A DNA stretch of 25,376 nucleotides, taken from IMG/VR virus record IMGVR_UViG_3300034198_015973, positions 1 to 25,376 of that record. One strand, written 5' to 3'. Below the pieces are notes generated by a model. It did no database searches and was not told where the DNA came from. It worked only from the letters and a program-made list of their open reading frames with translations. A program made the position numbers and the translations under genes. Every line of letters begins with the position of its first letter. Position 1 is the first letter of the stretch. This DNA comes from a virus. Positions 532-24,135 of the stretch are shown here, one piece after another.

Positions 532-1257
532 ATGGAAAAGAAGGCATTCGCGGGGAAGATAGAGGTCAAATTTGCCGAAACGGAGGGTGCGACGGCACGT
601 ACCTTCGAGGGTTATGGCGCAGTTTTCAACAATGTGGATCAGGCGCGCGACATCATCGCGCCCGGAGCATTCAGCGCCACCCTCGAAGAACACAAGTCGG
701 CGGGAACGATGCCCGCGATGTTCTTCAATCACGATGCTTTCGCGCTACCGATTGGCGTGTGGACCGATCTCAAAGAGGACTCAACCGGCCTCAAAGCAAG
801 CGGCCAGTTCCTCGACACCACAGCGGGTCGCGATGCCTATGCAGCGGTGAAGGCAGGAGCCGTAACAGGGCTGTCTATCGGATATATAGCGACCGGATAT
901 GAAATAGACGGGAAGACGCGGACCATCACCGAAGCGAAGTTGATAGAAATCTCAGTCGTTACCTTCCCGTGCAATGAATTGGCGCGGGTCGCGAGCGTTA
1001 AGAATCAGGAGAATGACATGGATGAAGATTTGAAAAAGAAACTCACGGATGCGGGCTTTGGTGAAGACGCGATCACAAAGCTTTTTGACAGCCGCGATGA
1101 TGACGCCACCGATGACGAGGTGACGGATGACGAAGAGGAAAAGTCGGGTGATGTCGAGGAAGACGCTGACGATGAACAGGAAGCTAAATACCACGAGGCT
1201 GCGTTAGCGGCCATTCGATCGAGTGTTGCAACAATCAAGGAGATGTATGTCCGCTAA
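532..1257 (+). CDS. Prohead maturation protease (HK97 gp4-like, peptidase S78) with acidic C-terminal extension
   Basis: This serine protease cleaves the capsid delta domain and itself inside the assembled prohead. The N-terminal 155 residues are the protease: FEGYGAVFNN, then FNHD with the probable catalytic His67, then GLSIGY with the probable catalytic Ser115, and a conserved acidic residue in LIEIS at Glu139 as the likely third member. Residues 163-241 form a very acidic helical tail that begins at an internal Met with its own ribosome binding site (see nested scaffold). The start ATG 532 is set by the TAAATA motif and follows the portal stop by eight bases. The 3' end overlaps the capsid start by 11 bases. 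The total of 241 residues is longer than a bare protease domain, which fits a protease-scaffold arrangement. Confidence 0.93.
   Translation: MEKKAFAGKIEVKFAETEGATARTFEGYGAVFNNVDQARDIIAPGAFSATLEEHKSAGTMPAMFFNHDAFALPIGVWTDLKEDSTGLKASGQFLDTTAGRDAYAAVKAGAVTGLSIGYIATGYEIDGKTRTITEAKLIEISVVTFPCNELARVASVKNQENDMDEDLKKKLTDAGFGEDAITKLFDSRDDDATDDEVTDDEEEKSGDVEEDADDEQEAKYHEAALAAIRSSVATIKEMYVR
1007..1020 (+). promoter_or_regulatory. Internal ribosome binding site inside the protease gene
   Basis: AGGAG at 1007-1011 lies six bases before an in-frame ATG at 1018. It is one of the best Shine-Dalgarno sequences in the window, although most genes here lack one. It falls exactly at the boundary between the protease domain and the acidic tail, so it probably starts a separate scaffold product. 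Confidence 0.6.
1018..1257 (+). CDS. Probable nested scaffold protein (same frame as the protease C-terminus)
   Basis: A 79-residue product would begin MDEDLKKKLTDAGF and share its stop with the protease. It has a short helical start, then a run of Asp/Glu-rich sequence (about residues 22-58), then a helix with AALAAIRSSVATIKEM. Small, acidic, helical and inside the protease gene is the arrangement of lambda C/Nu3, where the scaffold is made from an internal start. Here the start is backed by AGGAG with six-base spacing. The capsid also keeps an N-terminal helical region that could act as a built-in scaffold (delta domain), so a second scaffold is not strictly needed. Expression of the short form is an inference. 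Confidence 0.5.
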   Translation: MDEDLKKKLTDAGFGEDAITKLFDSRDDDATDDEVTDDEEEKSGDVEEDADDEQEAKYHEAALAAIRSSVATIKEMYVR

Positions 1258-2374
1258 TCTGAATACCGAACTCAAGAATCTCGAAACCGAGTTCAAGTCT
1301 GCCGTAGACCGTGCAGAAACCAAGCAGGCCGACGCGCTGAACACGGCGCTGACCGAGCTTCGCGCCGAAATCAAGGCGCTCGAAACTGCCGCAAATCGCC
1401 CCGCCATCGTGTCGAACATCACGACCGACAATGAAACGAAGGCGTTCAACATGTACCTCCGTGGCGGCGACTCCATGGAAATCAAAGCGATGTCGGCACT
1501 GGTGCCGGCTGAGGGCGGCTACACCGTGCCGAAGCTGATCGACAGCCAGATTCAGAAGGCCGTGATCGACATCTCGCCGATGCGGTCGGTCGCACGGGTC
1601 ATCTCCGTCACAACGCCCGACTTCCACATTCCGTTCTCCGTAGGTGGCACCGCGTCGGCATGGGTTGGCGAGAAGGATGCTCGGCCCGAAACCGCCGCGT
1701 CGTCGCTGGTCGAAATCGTGCCGTCCTTTGGCGAGCTATATGCCAGCCCGTTCGTCACTCAGACGATCCTTGAGGATTCCGCATTCGACATCGCGAGTTT
1801 CGTAACCAGTGAGGTCGCGACCGAGTTTGCTCGCGCGGAAGGTGCGGCATTCCTCCTCGGCGATGGCGTGAAGAAGCCCAAGGGCCTGTTGAACGTCACG
1901 TCCGCCCTGACTGGCGACGCGACCCGCCCATTTGGCACCGTTCAGGCCGTGAAGACTGGCGATGCCGCAAAGATCACCGCTGACTCCATCATTGCGTTGG
2001 TCCACTCGCTGAAGGCCGCGTACCGCCCGAACGCCCGCTTCATCATGAACAAGGACACGCTAGGTCAGGTTCGGATGCTGAAGGACACCACAGGTCGCTA
2101 CCTGTGGCAGGATAGCCTTCAGTCGGGCGTCCCCGGCTTGCTCGCTGGTTATGAGGTGGTGGAAGCCGAAGACATGCCGAACATCGCGGCGAACTCTACG
2201 CCCATTGTGTTCGGTGACTTCCAGCGCGCCTACACCATCGCCGACCGTGTCGGGATGTCCATGCTCTACAACCCGTATATCGCGCAGCCCTACGTCACCT
2301 ATCAGACGCGTAAGCGCGTGGGTGGCTGTGTTGTAGATACGGCAGCTTACAAGCTTCTGAAGATCGCGGCATAA
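1247..2374 (+). CDS. Major capsid protein (HK97 fold)
   Basis: The coat protein builds the icosahedral head. Residues 1 to about 65 form a charged helical region (ELKNLETEFKSAVDRAE, LTELRAEIKALE) that looks like a delta domain removed by the protease. The HK97 fold follows with AEGGYTVPKLIDSQIQ, the spine-helix region around FARAEGAAFLLGDGVKKPKGLL, and a C-terminal part with RVGGCVVDTAAYKLLKI. ATG 1247 was chosen because AAGGAG lies at 1237-1242, four bases upstream; the GTG at 1223 would put an odd QQSRRC stretch in front. It overlaps the protease end by 11 bases and is the only late gene here with a strong Shine-Dalgarno and no TAAATA, as expected for the most abundant product. The length is 375 residues. 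Confidence 0.95.
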   Translation: MSANLNTELKNLETEFKSAVDRAETKQADALNTALTELRAEIKALETAANRPAIVSNITTDNETKAFNMYLRGGDSMEIKAMSALVPAEGGYTVPKLIDSQIQKAVIDISPMRSVARVISVTTPDFHIPFSVGGTASAWVGEKDARPETAASSLVEIVPSFGELYASPFVTQTILEDSAFDIASFVTSEVATEFARAEGAAFLLGDGVKKPKGLLNVTSALTGDATRPFGTVQAVKTGDAAKITADSIIALVHSLKAAYRPNARFIMNKDTLGQVRMLKDTTGRYLWQDSLQSGVPGLLAGYEVVEAEDMPNIAANSTPIVFGDFQRAYTIADRVGMSMLYNPYIAQPYVTYQTRKRVGGCVVDTAAYKLLKIAA

Positions 2375-18367: not shown

Positions 18368-19990
18368 TTATAGGTTTGCGATCAGGGGTTTCAGTGGCTT
18401 GATGATCTCAGCCCAGATGTCGTGAACGACGCTTTCGGGATGTGTCCCGTCCGTCGTGGGTGAGGTGGCGAAAACCGAGCCAACTGCATGGGCGTAGGTG
18501 GGCGCGATACTCGCAGCCAACGTCGCCGTGAAGCTCCCCCCGCCATTGTCAGTCACAGCAGCAACGTTACCCTTGATCTCACTAGAAGAGGTGCCGGGCT
18601 CGAAATAGCACGCCGACCCAACAACGGGCGCAATGGTCGCGTTAATCGTCACGCTTGTCACAGCCACGCCCGCCGTCAGCGCCGTCGCCAACGTTCCCGC
18701 GCCAGCCTTCACAAATGCGAGACGCGCCCACACTGGAGCCTGACCAGTGAACTGGACATCCGGGCGCAACTCACGCTGCCCGCCGCGAAGATCGACAACC
18801 ATGGCGAGTGGTGCCGGACTCGTGTTGACCAGCCATTCGTTAAATTGCTCCAAGGCGACGCCCGCCGTGAAGGGGCGCGGGTCCTGTCCCTCCAAAGTCG
18901 TGTAATTGGTCGTGGCCGACGACGTGACGCGCGTGCTGACCGTGGATTGAATGATTGGGATACCGGGGAACGTCGCTGCAAGGAAATTCCACCACGCCTG
19001 TGCCCGGACCTTCATCAAGGCTAAGGCGTCGTCCGGCGTCGTGGCGCTAACCATACTGGAGAAATCGTTGCGCAGGCCTTGCGACCAGATATGGCTAAAT
19101 GGCCAGCGTCCGCCGTTCATGTCCCGCGCGGCGGCTAGCATGGCGTATCGCAGGCTGAAGCGGTTGCTGCCCGGCGTCACGTCCATAAGGTCTTCCATCG
19201 CTGCGCCGTGATGACCGAAGTTCGCCACCCCAAATGAACCCTGCCCGGACGGATCGCCCAGTGCCTTTACGATCCCGCCGACAAGCTGGCGCGCGTCGAA
19301 CCGCAAGTCGTTCTGTTGCGTGATGGAATCACCGATCAATAGAACGGAGGGTGTCGAGCCGTTGTACGGGATAAGGACGCCGTGCGGCTTATAGCCGCGT
19401 AGATTGTCAGGCGCGCTGCCAGTGATCGTGCCGCCGTTCAGGTTCGCAGCGACAGGCGCGCTATTGCGGCGGCGATACTCGCCAAAGACGGGATCAGCGT
19501 TCCAGCCTGTTGGACGCTTGCCACCGCTTGGCGTGGTCAGAGAGACACGGTGGAACCCTCCTGCAAAGGCCGGGCGCGCATCCTCGATCGCAAAGCCGCC
19601 ATCCGCCATCGTGATCGACGACATACCGCCAAATGTGCCAGCGACGCGCGTCCCACTGCCATTCGCAGCCGTGAAGGTCACGCTCCCATCGATGGTATTG
19701 GTATTGCCGGGGGGCGTTTCGAGCGCCGTGGGTCCCGCGCTGTCAACGGAGTTGAAGCCAAAATTCAAATACACGAACCGGTGCCCTGCCGGTTGAGGGG
19801 GCATGAAGTTGTCAGCGACTTCGTTCAGAAAGCCACTTGCGGGAGCATAGGCGAGCGTCGTCGTCCCGTTCCCGACCGTGCGATATGGCGATAAGCCGAA
19901 GACCAGATCACCAGCTTTTGGGCGCGTAGGAATGCTGCGGAAAAGCGTGGAAGAAAGGCTACCAACGCCTATACCCAGATCAATCTTCAT
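18368..19990 (-). CDS. SGNH-fold hydrolase, probable head-spike or capsule-directed protein
   Basis: This is a 540-residue protein. The first 200 residues are strand-rich and without catalytic motifs, likely for anchoring. The SGNH/GDSL hydrolase core follows: VLLIGDSITQQND with nucleophile Ser222, NFGHHG for block II, GLRND with Asn308, and DGTHP with Asp514 and His517. All four catalytic blocks are present, so it is probably an active esterase, for instance a polysaccharide deacetylase. A strand-rich insert of about 95 residues (LAFVKAGAGTLATALTAGVA to SVFATSPT) lies between blocks III and V. It directly follows the spike-base gene (ATG overlaps its stop), matching the GTA head-spike pair rcc01079/rcc01080. 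The spike role is inferred. Confidence 0.75.
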   Translation of the reverse strand: MKIDLGIGVGSLSSTLFRSIPTRPKAGDLVFGLSPYRTVGNGTTTLAYAPASGFLNEVADNFMPPQPAGHRFVYLNFGFNSVDSAGPTALETPPGNTNTIDGSVTFTAANGSGTRVAGTFGGMSSITMADGGFAIEDARPAFAGGFHRVSLTTPSGGKRPTGWNADPVFGEYRRRNSAPVAANLNGGTITGSAPDNLRGYKPHGVLIPYNGSTPSVLLIGDSITQQNDLRFDARQLVGGIVKALGDPSGQGSFGVANFGHHGAAMEDLMDVTPGSNRFSLRYAMLAAARDMNGGRWPFSHIWSQGLRNDFSSMVSATTPDDALALMKVRAQAWWNFLAATFPGIPIIQSTVSTRVTSSATTNYTTLEGQDPRPFTAGVALEQFNEWLVNTSPAPLAMVVDLRGGQRELRPDVQFTGQAPVWARLAFVKAGAGTLATALTAGVAVTSVTINATIAPVVGSACYFEPGTSSSEIKGNVAAVTDNGGGSFTATLAASIAPTYAHAVGSVFATSPTTDGTHPESVVHDIWAEIIKPLKPLIANL

Positions 19991-20241
19991 CAGGCGAGGG
20001 CCACGATGTTGGTGGCGGTGCTGGCAGTGGTCACGCGCAATACGCGGATTGGCAAGATCAGGCCGCTGGGAACGCTCTTGAAGGTGACTGGCGCGCCGTC
20101 CGCCATGAGAACAGTCAGGTCGCCGCCACTGCCGATATACAGGGCCTTGGATGTCAGTGCGAGATCGGTCCCCGCGATGACCGTTACAGCGGATCGCGCA
20201 GGAGAGGTAGGTGAGTCAGCATAAGCAGAGAAGTTGTCCAT
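19990..20241 (-). CDS. Spike base protein (GTA rcc01079-like)
   Basis: This is an 83-residue protein opening MDNFSAYADSPTSPARSAVT, then LTSKALYIGSGGDLTVLMAD, then VTFKSVPSGLILPIRVLRVT and ending TASTATNIVALA. The string 'aly.GsgGDltv...dg..vtf..vp.G.llPirv.rv....TatnivAL' is typical of the spike base family named after Rhodobacter rcc01079, which anchors capsule-binding head spikes. One base of its stop is shared with the start of the hydrolase gene. ATG 20241 follows the same TAAATA motif as the late genes, four bases upstream, showing that this - strand gene belongs to the same regulon. Confidence 0.75.
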   Translation of the reverse strand: MDNFSAYADSPTSPARSAVTVIAGTDLALTSKALYIGSGGDLTVLMADGAPVTFKSVPSGLILPIRVLRVTTASTATNIVALA

Positions 20242-20253
20242 CTGCTATTTAGC
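20242..20253 (-). promoter_or_regulatory. TAAATA motif before the spike base gene
   Basis: On the - strand TAAATA runs 20251-20246 and is followed after four bases by ATG 20241. The motif is flanked by TGCTA and TAGCA (reading TGCTATTTAGCA on the + strand, 20243-20254), a small five-pair palindrome. It is the only start-associated copy on the - strand. Confidence 0.6.
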
Positions 20254-20638: not shown

Positions 20639-22336
20639 TTATTTACTCGATAGGTCCGGACAAACTCGACGCAAATAACGCGCTTCTCTGACATCGTCGG
20701 TCGCATTGTCGCGCATCGAATGCATCAGGTCGAAATCCCAAACTCGTGGAGCGGCGCGCCCCCTGCCCGCCTTCACGCTGATTACCCGTCGTCCACCAAC
20801 GAACTTCACTATCGACACGCCATCATCGCGGCAGTCGATCCGGTCGATAACAGACCGAAACCCCTGAGCGACTTTCAAGCGAGCGGTCGTCCGCTCTTCA
20901 TCATCTTCGGCTTCCAAGTTTTCACGAATCGCGTTCAGGCGACTGATGTGTTCCGCCGCCGACACCTTCCCTGCCGCCATCGCGCGCGACGCCCGCAATT
21001 CGACAATCTCAGCCGCAATTGCTTCGGCTTCCGCCTCACGTTGCCCCGCTAGCTTCTGCGCAATGGCGCTCGCGCCCGCGTTCATCCAAAGCTCTTCAGC
21101 CGCCTTGTAGGCGATGTCGTGATCCCGCTGACGGTCTGCAATTTGGATATCAAGGCGCGCCACGTCTTCGCGGCGGGAGAATGACGCATCGTCCAGCGAC
21201 AGGTGGAGCGCCGAATCGATCAACGCTCTCTCCAGCGAGACGTACGCGATGGTTCGCTTGTTCGAGCAGCCACCATCGTTCGCGATTGGGCAAACGAGCG
21301 ATGCCGCCTTCGTCTTGGTTGGCGCTTGCTCGACGCCATTTCGAACTCGAACGTAACCGGCGCGACGACCATTCCGGTAGTTCATTTTCGCGCCGCATGT
21401 CGCGCAATGCGCCAGCCCCGCAAACAAATTGGGGATGTCAGCCTTGTTTCCCGCAACCGCCTTACGATCAGCGGCAGCGGTTGAAACACGGGCAAAAAGA
21501 TCGGGGTCGATGATACGAGGATAATAATCGCGGATCGGATCACCCACGGGGACACGCTTGTCGCCTACCATCCGCATTGGCTGATGATCGCCAGTCACGG
21601 CGGGGTCGGTTAGCATTCGAACCAACGTTCCTCGCGACCATGCGCGCGGCGTTCGATTTGCGAATCTCGCCCATGGCTTGATACCGCGTTCGTTCAGCGA
21701 ACGGGCTATGCGCTGCGAACCCATCCCGTTATCGGCAAGCTCGTAAATCAGGCGGACGGTGTCGTCGCGATTTTCGAAAACCTCATAGCGCGATCGGTCT
21801 TCACTGATTCGAAGCCATGCAGGACATAGAGCGCTCACCGGCTTCTTCGCCTCTGTCATCGCGGTGCGTCGTGCATCCCATTTTGCTCGACCATGGCTCG
21901 ACTTCTTGGCCGATTCTTCGTGGTTCATGCGCAAGCGAACGATCAGTTCGATCATCGCGGCGAATTCGATGGGCTGGTAGGCTTCATAGAGCCGGTCGCC
22001 TTCGACAGTGGCAATCGACAGCCCACTCTTTGTCAGCGCGCGAATCAGGTCATAAGTCTCGTTATGATCCTCACGGCTGAGGCGGTCGAGGCGTTCAATC
22101 ACCAACACCTTGCCGACGTGTAGACCGTCTCGGGCTTCGCGTTCGAGCGTCCCAAGCGCGGCATTCGCGAGACGATGATGGCCTTTAAATCCCGACCGGC
22201 CCTCATCCTTGAGGATCGTTTCAAGCGTCCACCCCTTAGACTCTATATATGGAGTGCACGTCCGAAGCTGACGCGGAATCGAATCGCCCGTGGCCTGAGC
22301 GTCAGACGAAAACCGCGCATATATAATAGCCTGCAT
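20639..22336 (-). CDS. Large serine recombinase (prophage integrase)
   Basis: This 565-residue protein is an integrase of the large serine recombinase family, which joins attP and attB through a Ser-linked intermediate. The resolvase domain (about 1-150) opens MQAIIYARFSSDAQATGDS, with the nucleophile in RFSS, and has KVLVIERLDRLSREDHNETYDL. The recombinase domain follows with SLNERGIKPWARFANRTPRAW. A zinc ribbon near residue 310 has CATCGAKM and later CPIANDGGC. A coiled coil with ADRQRDHDIAYKAAEELW comes after. ATG 22336 was chosen over the ATG one codon upstream, since GAGG lies seven bases before it. The gene starts 14 bases after the mutL stop in the same direction, so in the lysogen it may be read with mutL. 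Confidence 0.9.
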   Translation of the reverse strand: MQAIIYARFSSDAQATGDSIPRQLRTCTPYIESKGWTLETILKDEGRSGFKGHHRLANAALGTLEREARDGLHVGKVLVIERLDRLSREDHNETYDLIRALTKSGLSIATVEGDRLYEAYQPIEFAAMIELIVRLRMNHEESAKKSSHGRAKWDARRTAMTEAKKPVSALCPAWLRISEDRSRYEVFENRDDTVRLIYELADNGMGSQRIARSLNERGIKPWARFANRTPRAWSRGTLVRMLTDPAVTGDHQPMRMVGDKRVPVGDPIRDYYPRIIDPDLFARVSTAAADRKAVAGNKADIPNLFAGLAHCATCGAKMNYRNGRRAGYVRVRNGVEQAPTKTKAASLVCPIANDGGCSNKRTIAYVSLERALIDSALHLSLDDASFSRREDVARLDIQIADRQRDHDIAYKAAEELWMNAGASAIAQKLAGQREAEAEAIAAEIVELRASRAMAAGKVSAAEHISRLNAIRENLEAEDDEERTTARLKVAQGFRSVIDRIDCRDDGVSIVKFVGGRRVISVKAGRGRAAPRVWDFDLMHSMRDNATDDVREARYLRRVCPDLSSK

Positions 22337-22353
22337 CATTCGACCTCACTTTA
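22337..22353. other. Inferred right prophage end (attR) at the 3' end of mutL
   Basis: The boundary between prophage and host must lie between the recombinase start and the mutL stop, or inside the last codons of mutL. MutL ends in a normal SLAKLFGR, so integration kept or restored its C-terminus. The core cannot be placed because the left end is outside the window. Confidence 0.4.
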
Positions 22354-24135
22354 ACGCCCGAACAGCTTCGCGAGCGATTGTGAGTCGAGCTTTACCCAGG
22401 TCGGGCGGCCATGGTTGCACTGGCCGGAATGGGGCGTGACTTCCATTTCGCGCAGCAGCGCATTCATCTCGGCAACCGACAGGATGCGGCCTGCGCGCAC
22501 CGAGCCGTGGCAAGCCATGGTGGCGGCGACATGATCCAGCCGTTCGCGCAGGGATAGCGCCTGGTCGAAGGCGGCGAGTTCGTCGGCGAGGTCGGCGACC
22601 AGCCCCTTGGGGTCGCTCTGCCCCAAGAGTGCTGGCGTGGAGCGGACCAGCATCGCGGTCGGACCGAAGCGTTCGAGGTCGAGGCCGAATTCCGCCAGTT
22701 CCTCGGCGCGCGCTTCCAGCCGGTCGCAGGCGGGTTCGTCCAGTTCGACCACTTCGGGGATGAGCATGGCCTGCGAGGCCACCCGGCCGCCGGTCAGCGC
22801 GGCGCGCATCCGCTCCAGCACCAGCCGTTCATGCGCGGCATGCTGATCGACCAGGACCAGGCCGTCCTCCGCCTCGGCGACGATATAGGTCTTGGCGACC
22901 TGCCCCCGCGCGACGCCCATCGGATATTGGCGAACCTCCGGCGGGGAAGCGAAAGCCGCTTCGGCACGGGCGAGCGGCGGGGGCACTGCAAAGCCGGGAC
23001 GCGGCGCGAAAAGCGACTGGCGCTCCATGACCCGCGTCTCGGGCGCAGACGATGCCCAGTCATCGGCGACCGGGGCGGCGGCCACGGGCGCAGCGACACT
23101 CTCTGCCTGCCACATGGCCAGTGCCGAGTCCGGCGGACGCTGCACGCTGCGATGACCCGCTTCGTCCAGCGCGCGACGCAGGCCGGATACGATCATGCCC
23201 CGGATCAGCGCAGGATCCCGAAAGCGCACCTCGGTCTTGGCCGGATGGACGTTCACATCGACTTCCGACGGCGGCATGTCGAGGAAGAGCGCCACGACCG
23301 CGTGACGATCCCGTGGCAGCATCTCCGCATAAGCCCCTCGGATCGCGCCCATTAACAGGCGATCGCGGACCGGTCGGCCATTGACGAACAGATATTGATG
23401 GTCGGCGATACCCCGGTTGAACGTCGGCAGCCCAGCGACCCCGCCCAGCGACACGGTGTCGCGCACCCAGTCGATCGCGACCGAATTCTCCGCCAGCGCT
23501 CGGTCGGTCAGGCCAGCCACGCGGCCGGGCCGCTCCTCGCCGCCCGGCACCGTCAGCACCCGCCGACCGTCGTGCTCCAGCGTGAAGGCAATATCGGGCC
23601 GCGCCATCGCCAGGCGGCGCACCATGTCGAGGCAGGCGGCATATTCCGAACGCGGCGAGCGCAGGAACTTGCGCCGCGCCGGGACCCGCGCGAACAGGTC
23701 CTCCACCACGATCCGGGTCCCCGGCGGCACGGCGGCGGGGCCGTCGCGCAGCACCTCGCCATTGTCGACGACACGGCTCCACCCGTCGCGGCCCGCCGGT
23801 CTGCTTTCGATCGTGACCCGTGCGACGCTGGCGATCGAGGGCAGCGCTTCGCCGCGAAAACCCAGGGTCAGAACCGATTCGATCGCTTCGTCCAGCAGCT
23901 TGGACGTACAGTGCCTCTCCAGCGCCAGCGCCATATCCTCGGCCGACATGCCGCACCCGTCATCGGCCACCTCGATCCGGCCAATGCCCCCTTGCCCGAT
24001 CGTCACCGCGATCCGGCTGGACCCCGCATCGATTGAATTTTCGACCAATTCCTTCAACGCACTGGCGGGCCTTTCCACCACTTCACCGGCCGCGATACGA
24101 TTGACGAGATGGGGAGGCAGACGCCGTATTGACAT
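22351..24135 (-). CDS. mutL: DNA mismatch repair protein MutL
   Basis: This host gene of 594 residues links MutS mismatch recognition to strand incision. The GHKL ATPase domain opens MSIRRLPPHLVNRIAAGEVV, with ELVENSIDAGSSRI (ATP-binding Asn), DDGCGM and GFRGEALPSIASV. The transducer domain has a typical NGRPVRDRLL and DVNVHPAKTEVRF. The C-terminal domain carries VDQHAAHERLVLERM, the DQHA(x)2E(x)4E metal motif of MutL proteins with their own nicking endonuclease, as expected in bacteria without MutH. Length is normal and no break is seen. It is divergent from mreB. Base composition is clearly more GC-rich than the prophage. Confidence 0.97.
   Translation of the reverse strand: MSIRRLPPHLVNRIAAGEVVERPASALKELVENSIDAGSSRIAVTIGQGGIGRIEVADDGCGMSAEDMALALERHCTSKLLDEAIESVLTLGFRGEALPSIASVARVTIESRPAGRDGWSRVVDNGEVLRDGPAAVPPGTRIVVEDLFARVPARRKFLRSPRSEYAACLDMVRRLAMARPDIAFTLEHDGRRVLTVPGGEERPGRVAGLTDRALAENSVAIDWVRDTVSLGGVAGLPTFNRGIADHQYLFVNGRPVRDRLLMGAIRGAYAEMLPRDRHAVVALFLDMPPSEVDVNVHPAKTEVRFRDPALIRGMIVSGLRRALDEAGHRSVQRPPDSALAMWQAESVAAPVAAAPVADDWASSAPETRVMERQSLFAPRPGFAVPPPLARAEAAFASPPEVRQYPMGVARGQVAKTYIVAEAEDGLVLVDQHAAHERLVLERMRAALTGGRVASQAMLIPEVVELDEPACDRLEARAEELAEFGLDLERFGPTAMLVRSTPALLGQSDPKGLVADLADELAAFDQALSLRERLDHVAATMACHGSVRAGRILSVAEMNALLREMEVTPHSGQCNHGRPTWVKLDSQSLAKLFGR

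Follow-up and report, generated by a model that had tools for sequence, protein, structure and literature searches.

A candidate capsid-vertex spike with a predicted SGNH esterase, encoded beside the integrase of a temperate phage

The window analyzed here is a stretch of 25,376 nucleotides from an IMG/VR virus record (IMGVR_UViG_3300034198_015973). Near the integrase end, two ORFs on the minus strand encode an 83-aa homologue of the base of the RcGTA head spike and a 540-aa SGNH hydrolase. The ORFs overlap by one base (TGATG), as was already noticed in a sequence-only reading of the same DNA. The relevant features, with the evidence for each in parentheses, are as follows.

1223..2374 (+): major capsid protein, on which the base may dock; the true start may differ (PDB 6tb9 Rcc01687, E 7.9e-72)
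18368..19990 (-): 540-aa SGNH hydrolase, putative ligand of the head spike (catalytic blocks, alignment, homology to Rabbitrun gp24)
18437..18451 (-): SGNH block V, DGTHP, Asp514 and His517 (sequence, alignment)
18461..18772, approximate (-): region of residues ~407-510, where a beta-rich insert of ~93 residues separates the SGNH core from block V (comparison with insert-free Rabbitrun gp24, low-confidence model)
19067..19069 (-): SGNH block III, Asn308 within QGLRND (sequence, alignment)
19319..19333 (-): SGNH block I, GDSIT, nucleophile Ser222 (sequence, alignment)
19964..19990 (-): MKIDLGIGV at residues 1-9 of the hydrolase, putative docking tip (likeness to the RcGTA fibre tip, enrichment after base genes)
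19990..20241 (-): 83-aa homologue of the head-spike base, Rcc01079 / phrog_12296 family (phmmer against PDB, PHROGs)
20246..20251 (-): TAAATA, 4 nt before the ATG of the base gene (motif search)
521, 2437, 3655, 5223, 7587, 8886, 10970 and 16932 (+) and 20251 (-): TAAATA, 4-5 nt before late-gene starts

Bases 1-22336 of the window are 99.99% identical to positions 16400-38735 of a fuller record of the phage (G001), and the remainder consists of the host genes mutL and mreB; the window is therefore a prophage adjoining mutL. It encodes protease, capsid, neck, tail, tape measure and tail fibre proteins together with a large serine integrase, and the fuller record also encodes the large terminase, the portal and a replication helicase/primase. 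The element is thus a complete temperate phage. Identification as a GTA, that is, a domesticated cluster lacking integration and replication genes, was rejected given the serine integrase, terminase, portal and helicase/primase, so that the label “GTA-style” applied in the sequence-only reading holds for the homologous parts but not for the element. The integrase gene (20639-24135, minus strand) starts 12 bp from the mutL stop codon, where the G001 record also ends; this probably places the attachment site at the 3' end of mutL. Among solved structures, the flanking mreB product best matches the MreB entry 4cze, which we take to be the Caulobacter protein, and this match suggests an alphaproteobacterial host. 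Scans of genome contigs found no relative. The capsid protein finds its best solved match in Rcc01687 of RcGTA; because this protein carries the base in RcGTA, the homology supports a location of the present base on the head.

The assignment of the base to the Rcc01079 type was upheld by homology that is nearly full-length at a size of about 80-90 aa. A phmmer search of the PDB aligned residues 1-78 with 6tb9_E3, which is Rcc01079 (E 1.8e-6), and the protein matches phrog_12296 at E 1.4e-15. A profile (A8) built from nine members of the base family, including Rcc01079, retrieved an independent homologue that lay outside the alignment, chain h of PDB 8cjz, named “Spike Base Protein” by its depositors (E 1.5e-8). 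Within the N-terminal capsid-binding arm, MDNFSAYADSPTSPAR aligns with MDVFAKHAVSLESPAV; Glu12, which contributes to cation binding in the RcGTA base (PMC7296036), is not conserved. In PHROGs, phrog_12296 is named “tail fiber protein,” a label repeated in some GenBank phage records, although the structural evidence favours the head. The genomic position of the base gene varies among phages: it directly follows the major capsid gene in the immuto phages, lies among the head genes in phage ZHS and comes after the tail genes in the Verrucomicrobia phage P8625.

In the hydrolase, GDSIT starts at residue 220, NFGHHG at 257, GLRND at 305 and DGTHP at 514, such that Ser222, Gly259, Asn308, Asp514 and His517 are intact and SGNH blocks I, II, III and V are all present; the residue numbers given earlier for the serine, asparagine, aspartate and histidine were correct. 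These five residues are invariant in an alignment of 16 sequences extending to about 45% identity, and GDS, NFGHHG, GLRND and DGTH are kept without exception in the IMG/VR relatives. No direct family match exceeded the cut-off: the best in Pfam, Lipase_GDSL (PF00657), begins at the GDS block and scores 14.6 bits against a cut-off of 23.6 (E 0.036), and tblastn searches of phage and plasmid collections with the hydrolase found nothing. Homology to recognized SGNH proteins was instead established through gp24 of the Gordonia phage Rabbitrun (blastp E 2e-6; hhalign profile comparison E 1.1e-11), which itself belongs to PF13472 (E 5.6e-18). Half of the 16 aligned sequences match phrog_8480, “lysophospholipase L1-like esterase” (best E 1.6e-27), a family that comprises Rabbitrun gp24 and proteins of the Rhizobium phages AF3 and P10VF. 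Both the SGNH core and the domain preceding it are homologous between this family and the present hydrolase, whereas the Rabbitrun, AF3 and P10VF proteins lack the docking tip, and none was seen with a base gene alongside. Unlike the hydrolase, Rabbitrun gp24 has no insert before DGTHP. The distance from D400 to D514 is 114 residues in the hydrolase, compared with 21 in gp24, which puts the insert, previously counted as 95 residues, at ~93. Beta strands appear in the insert region of a low-confidence AlphaFold model computed with a five-sequence alignment (mean pLDDT 32.8, against 30.5 for the single sequence).

Residues ~60-205 match the domain ahead of the SGNH domain in the Gordonia protein, which is annotated as a minor tail protein, and thus appear to belong with the enzyme rather than with its mount. 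Judged by sequence, this match does not decide between a head and a tail location, and attachment most likely rests on residues 1-12 rather than on the first 200.

The extreme N-terminus of the hydrolase resembles the tip by which the RcGTA fibre is held. In the cryo-EM structure of RcGTA, each vertex carries a pentamer of Rcc01079 and one Rcc01080, and residues 2-10 of this head fibre, IALGLGLGL, bind the base pentamer as a five-point star (PMC7296036). Similarly, the hydrolase, encoded directly after the base, begins with five alternating hydrophobic residues (M1, I3, L5, I7 and V9). Comparable N-termini are encoded by other genes that follow base genes, for example, MYIGLGISL, MIGLGLDLSL, MPIGIGLGM, MMIGVGVGI, MKLGINLSI and MPGLGIGLGVGL. 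Tips with at least four alternating hydrophobics, called with one scorer throughout, were found in 16 of 45 post-base genes (the present hydrolase included), compared with a single one among 309 control ORFs drawn from these loci (Fisher p 5e-15); the scorer was written only once the first examples had been seen. When a single gene was taken per base cluster (<70% identity between clusters), 11 of 31 had the tip, whereas 2000 sets of shuffled N-termini gave 0.33 on average and never more than 3; in more than half of the clusters, the next gene encodes no clear tip. The proteins behind the tips include ConA-like lectins and one with a VWA domain, as expected for exchangeable heads. Thus, on sequence grounds, the tip looks like a general plug that mounts lectins and enzymes on phage heads.

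The motif TAAATA occurs 13 times in the window compared with 2.4 expected copies, a number reached in 0 of 100 shuffles. In the G001 record, 12 copies are located 4-5 nt before gene starts between 11.7 and 33.4 kb, in the packaging and structural block. The copy on the minus strand, 4 nt before the base gene, bears out the proposed tie between the pair and the late genes; genes that overlap the preceding stop codon, such as that of the hydrolase, have no TAAATA. The copies occupy the Shine-Dalgarno position. They may act either as a non-canonical ribosome signal or as a late-promoter element yielding near-leaderless transcripts. No sigma-70-like promoter was found at the pair, and a literature search for this start motif returned nothing relevant. 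In nearly all loci of the relatives, TAAATA is absent before gene starts, so the motif belongs to the phage rather than to the pair.

Comparison with the relatives reveals several natural exchanges around the enzyme. In three further distinct relatives (L102/L103, L105 and L104), the base, the TGATG overlap, the tip and the hydrolase are all kept, with the hydrolases 66-78% identical to that of the window and the bases only 26-44% identical. Conversely, L003 encodes a hydrolase with 80% identity but no base; the N-terminus of this enzyme reads MGFKFNVGGGG, and its gene lies behind that of a different, 154-aa protein. Because the tree places L003 beside the window (support 96/95), the base and the tip were probably lost together there. 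In nine more distant relatives (L112-L120), the hydrolase carries a Sec-type signal peptide, as called by hydropathy and an AxA heuristic rather than a dedicated predictor; neither protein of the window has one. Where inspected, the upstream partner in these nine also has a signal peptide (for example, L112:5396-5860, followed by L112:5857-7548), and it is possible that these pairs are secreted and alter the host surface. A comparison by hhalign gave no support for this unrelated partner being a diverged base (probability 1). L114 encodes two homologues of the partner protein in tandem (L114:5091-5417 and L114:5414-5866), one with a signal peptide and one without. Between its genes for the major and minor capsid proteins, the Rhizobium phage RHph_N1_10 encodes a protein distantly homologous to the hydrolase (L125:1946-4140), with an apparent PDS replacing GDS; the gene shares one base with that of the partner upstream.

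Taken together, the homologies of base, capsid protein and enzyme, the catalytic residues, the tip and its association with the base family, the gene overlap and the shared TAAATA point to a virion head spike, a reading to which we assign a probability of roughly 0.7. The head spike suggested initially gains further weight from the docking tip and from a capsid protein of the RcGTA type. In the proposed mechanism, the pair would be expressed late under the TAAATA start signal, with translation of the enzyme coupled to that of the base, and both proteins would be present in phage particles. The 83-aa base would form a pentameric socket on the capsid vertices, like Rcc01079 in RcGTA, and each socket would hold one 540-aa SGNH esterase plugged in by the five hydrophobics of its N-terminal tip. 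With a pentamer on each non-portal vertex, a particle would bear about eleven catalytic heads, a stoichiometry borrowed from RcGTA. Projecting from the head, the enzyme body would bind the capsule or exopolysaccharide of the host while the particle is held in it and would de-esterify, most likely de-O-acetylate, the polysaccharide, helping the tail to reach the cell.

Several observations count against this head spike. Apart from the PHROGs label of the base family and the sub-threshold Pfam score of the hydrolase, the nine relatives with signal peptides imply that enzymes of this family can work away from the virion, the pair runs opposite to the late genes, and the tip statistics are qualified by the post hoc scorer and by the many base clusters whose next gene has no clear tip. 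Some of these observations would fit a base on the tail or baseplate, with the hydrolase acting as a tail-associated receptor-binding enzyme of a virion spike. The database labels in PHROGs and several GenBank records, the position of the base gene in P8625 and the occurrence of the enzyme family among tail genes in Gordonia phages all speak for such a location. It is nevertheless improbable: the base-family structure with a described location sits on capsid vertices (PMC7296036), the capsid protein here is of the RcGTA type, the base adjoins capsid genes in the immuto and ZHS phages, and genes for a central tail fibre and a large tail protein are already present in the window.

The proposed enzymatic role of the spike faces a separate challenge, namely, that the spike binds polysaccharide as a lectin, with an SGNH domain that lacks esterase activity. 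The activity is predicted here from sequence, the RcGTA head fibre binds capsule without known activity (PMC7296036), and several other base-linked proteins are ConA-like lectins. However, the catalytic residues are invariant throughout the 16-sequence alignment, and SGNH receptor-binding proteins of Klebsiella prophages tested elsewhere proved to be esterases (PMC13123978), which makes a purely binding role unlikely. Slightly less probable still is that the hydrolase is no virion component but is made mainly by the lysogen or the infected cell to alter its own surface, in superinfection exclusion or lysogenic conversion. The exported enzymes of L112-L120, along with their partners where inspected, and the inverted pair next to the integrase are compatible with such a role; against it, both window proteins lack signal peptides, the enzyme has a docking tip and overlaps the spike-base gene, and the pair shares its start signal with the late genes.

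Head-spike bases with binding fibres are already known, as are SGNH esterases on tails. The present pair resembles the RcGTA head spike (Rcc01079 and Rcc01080, PDB 6tb9) in the near full-length base homology, the capsid type and the alternating tip of the partner; the partners were compared at the tip, not over the whole length. It differs in that the body of the partner is an SGNH hydrolase and that the pair is encoded by a complete temperate phage; enzyme activity of the RcGTA fibre is not reported in the literature searched (PMC7296036). Conversely, the predicted reaction and attachment role are those of the SGNH tailspikes and fibres that deacetylate polysaccharides, such as gp63.1 of G7C and the receptor-binding proteins of Klebsiella prophages (PMC13123978), but these are tail-mounted, whereas the hydrolase described here is predicted to reside on the head vertices. 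The literature searched, the coverage of which is incomplete, yielded neither a head-mounted SGNH esterase nor any account of the tip as a widespread code.

More broadly, the tip and the Rcc01079-type pentamer may constitute a plug-and-socket code for exchangeable lectins and enzymes on the capsid vertices of unrelated tailed phages, which here would mount a polysaccharide esterase of a family that would have switched between exported and virion-mounted delivery. This generalization is tentative, and we rate it at somewhat below even odds. As a short sequence code, the docking tip can serve to find head-mounted ligands among phage genes annotated as “hypothetical” or “tail fiber.” It also points to an easy way of placing proteins on capsids. 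Enzymes that open the sugar coats of bacteria are usually regarded as parts of the tail. If the proposed arrangement is correct, an esterase on the head vertices would give each particle as many as about eleven additional catalytic sites, by the RcGTA count, and would explain how the phage passes through exopolysaccharide before its tail engages the cell.
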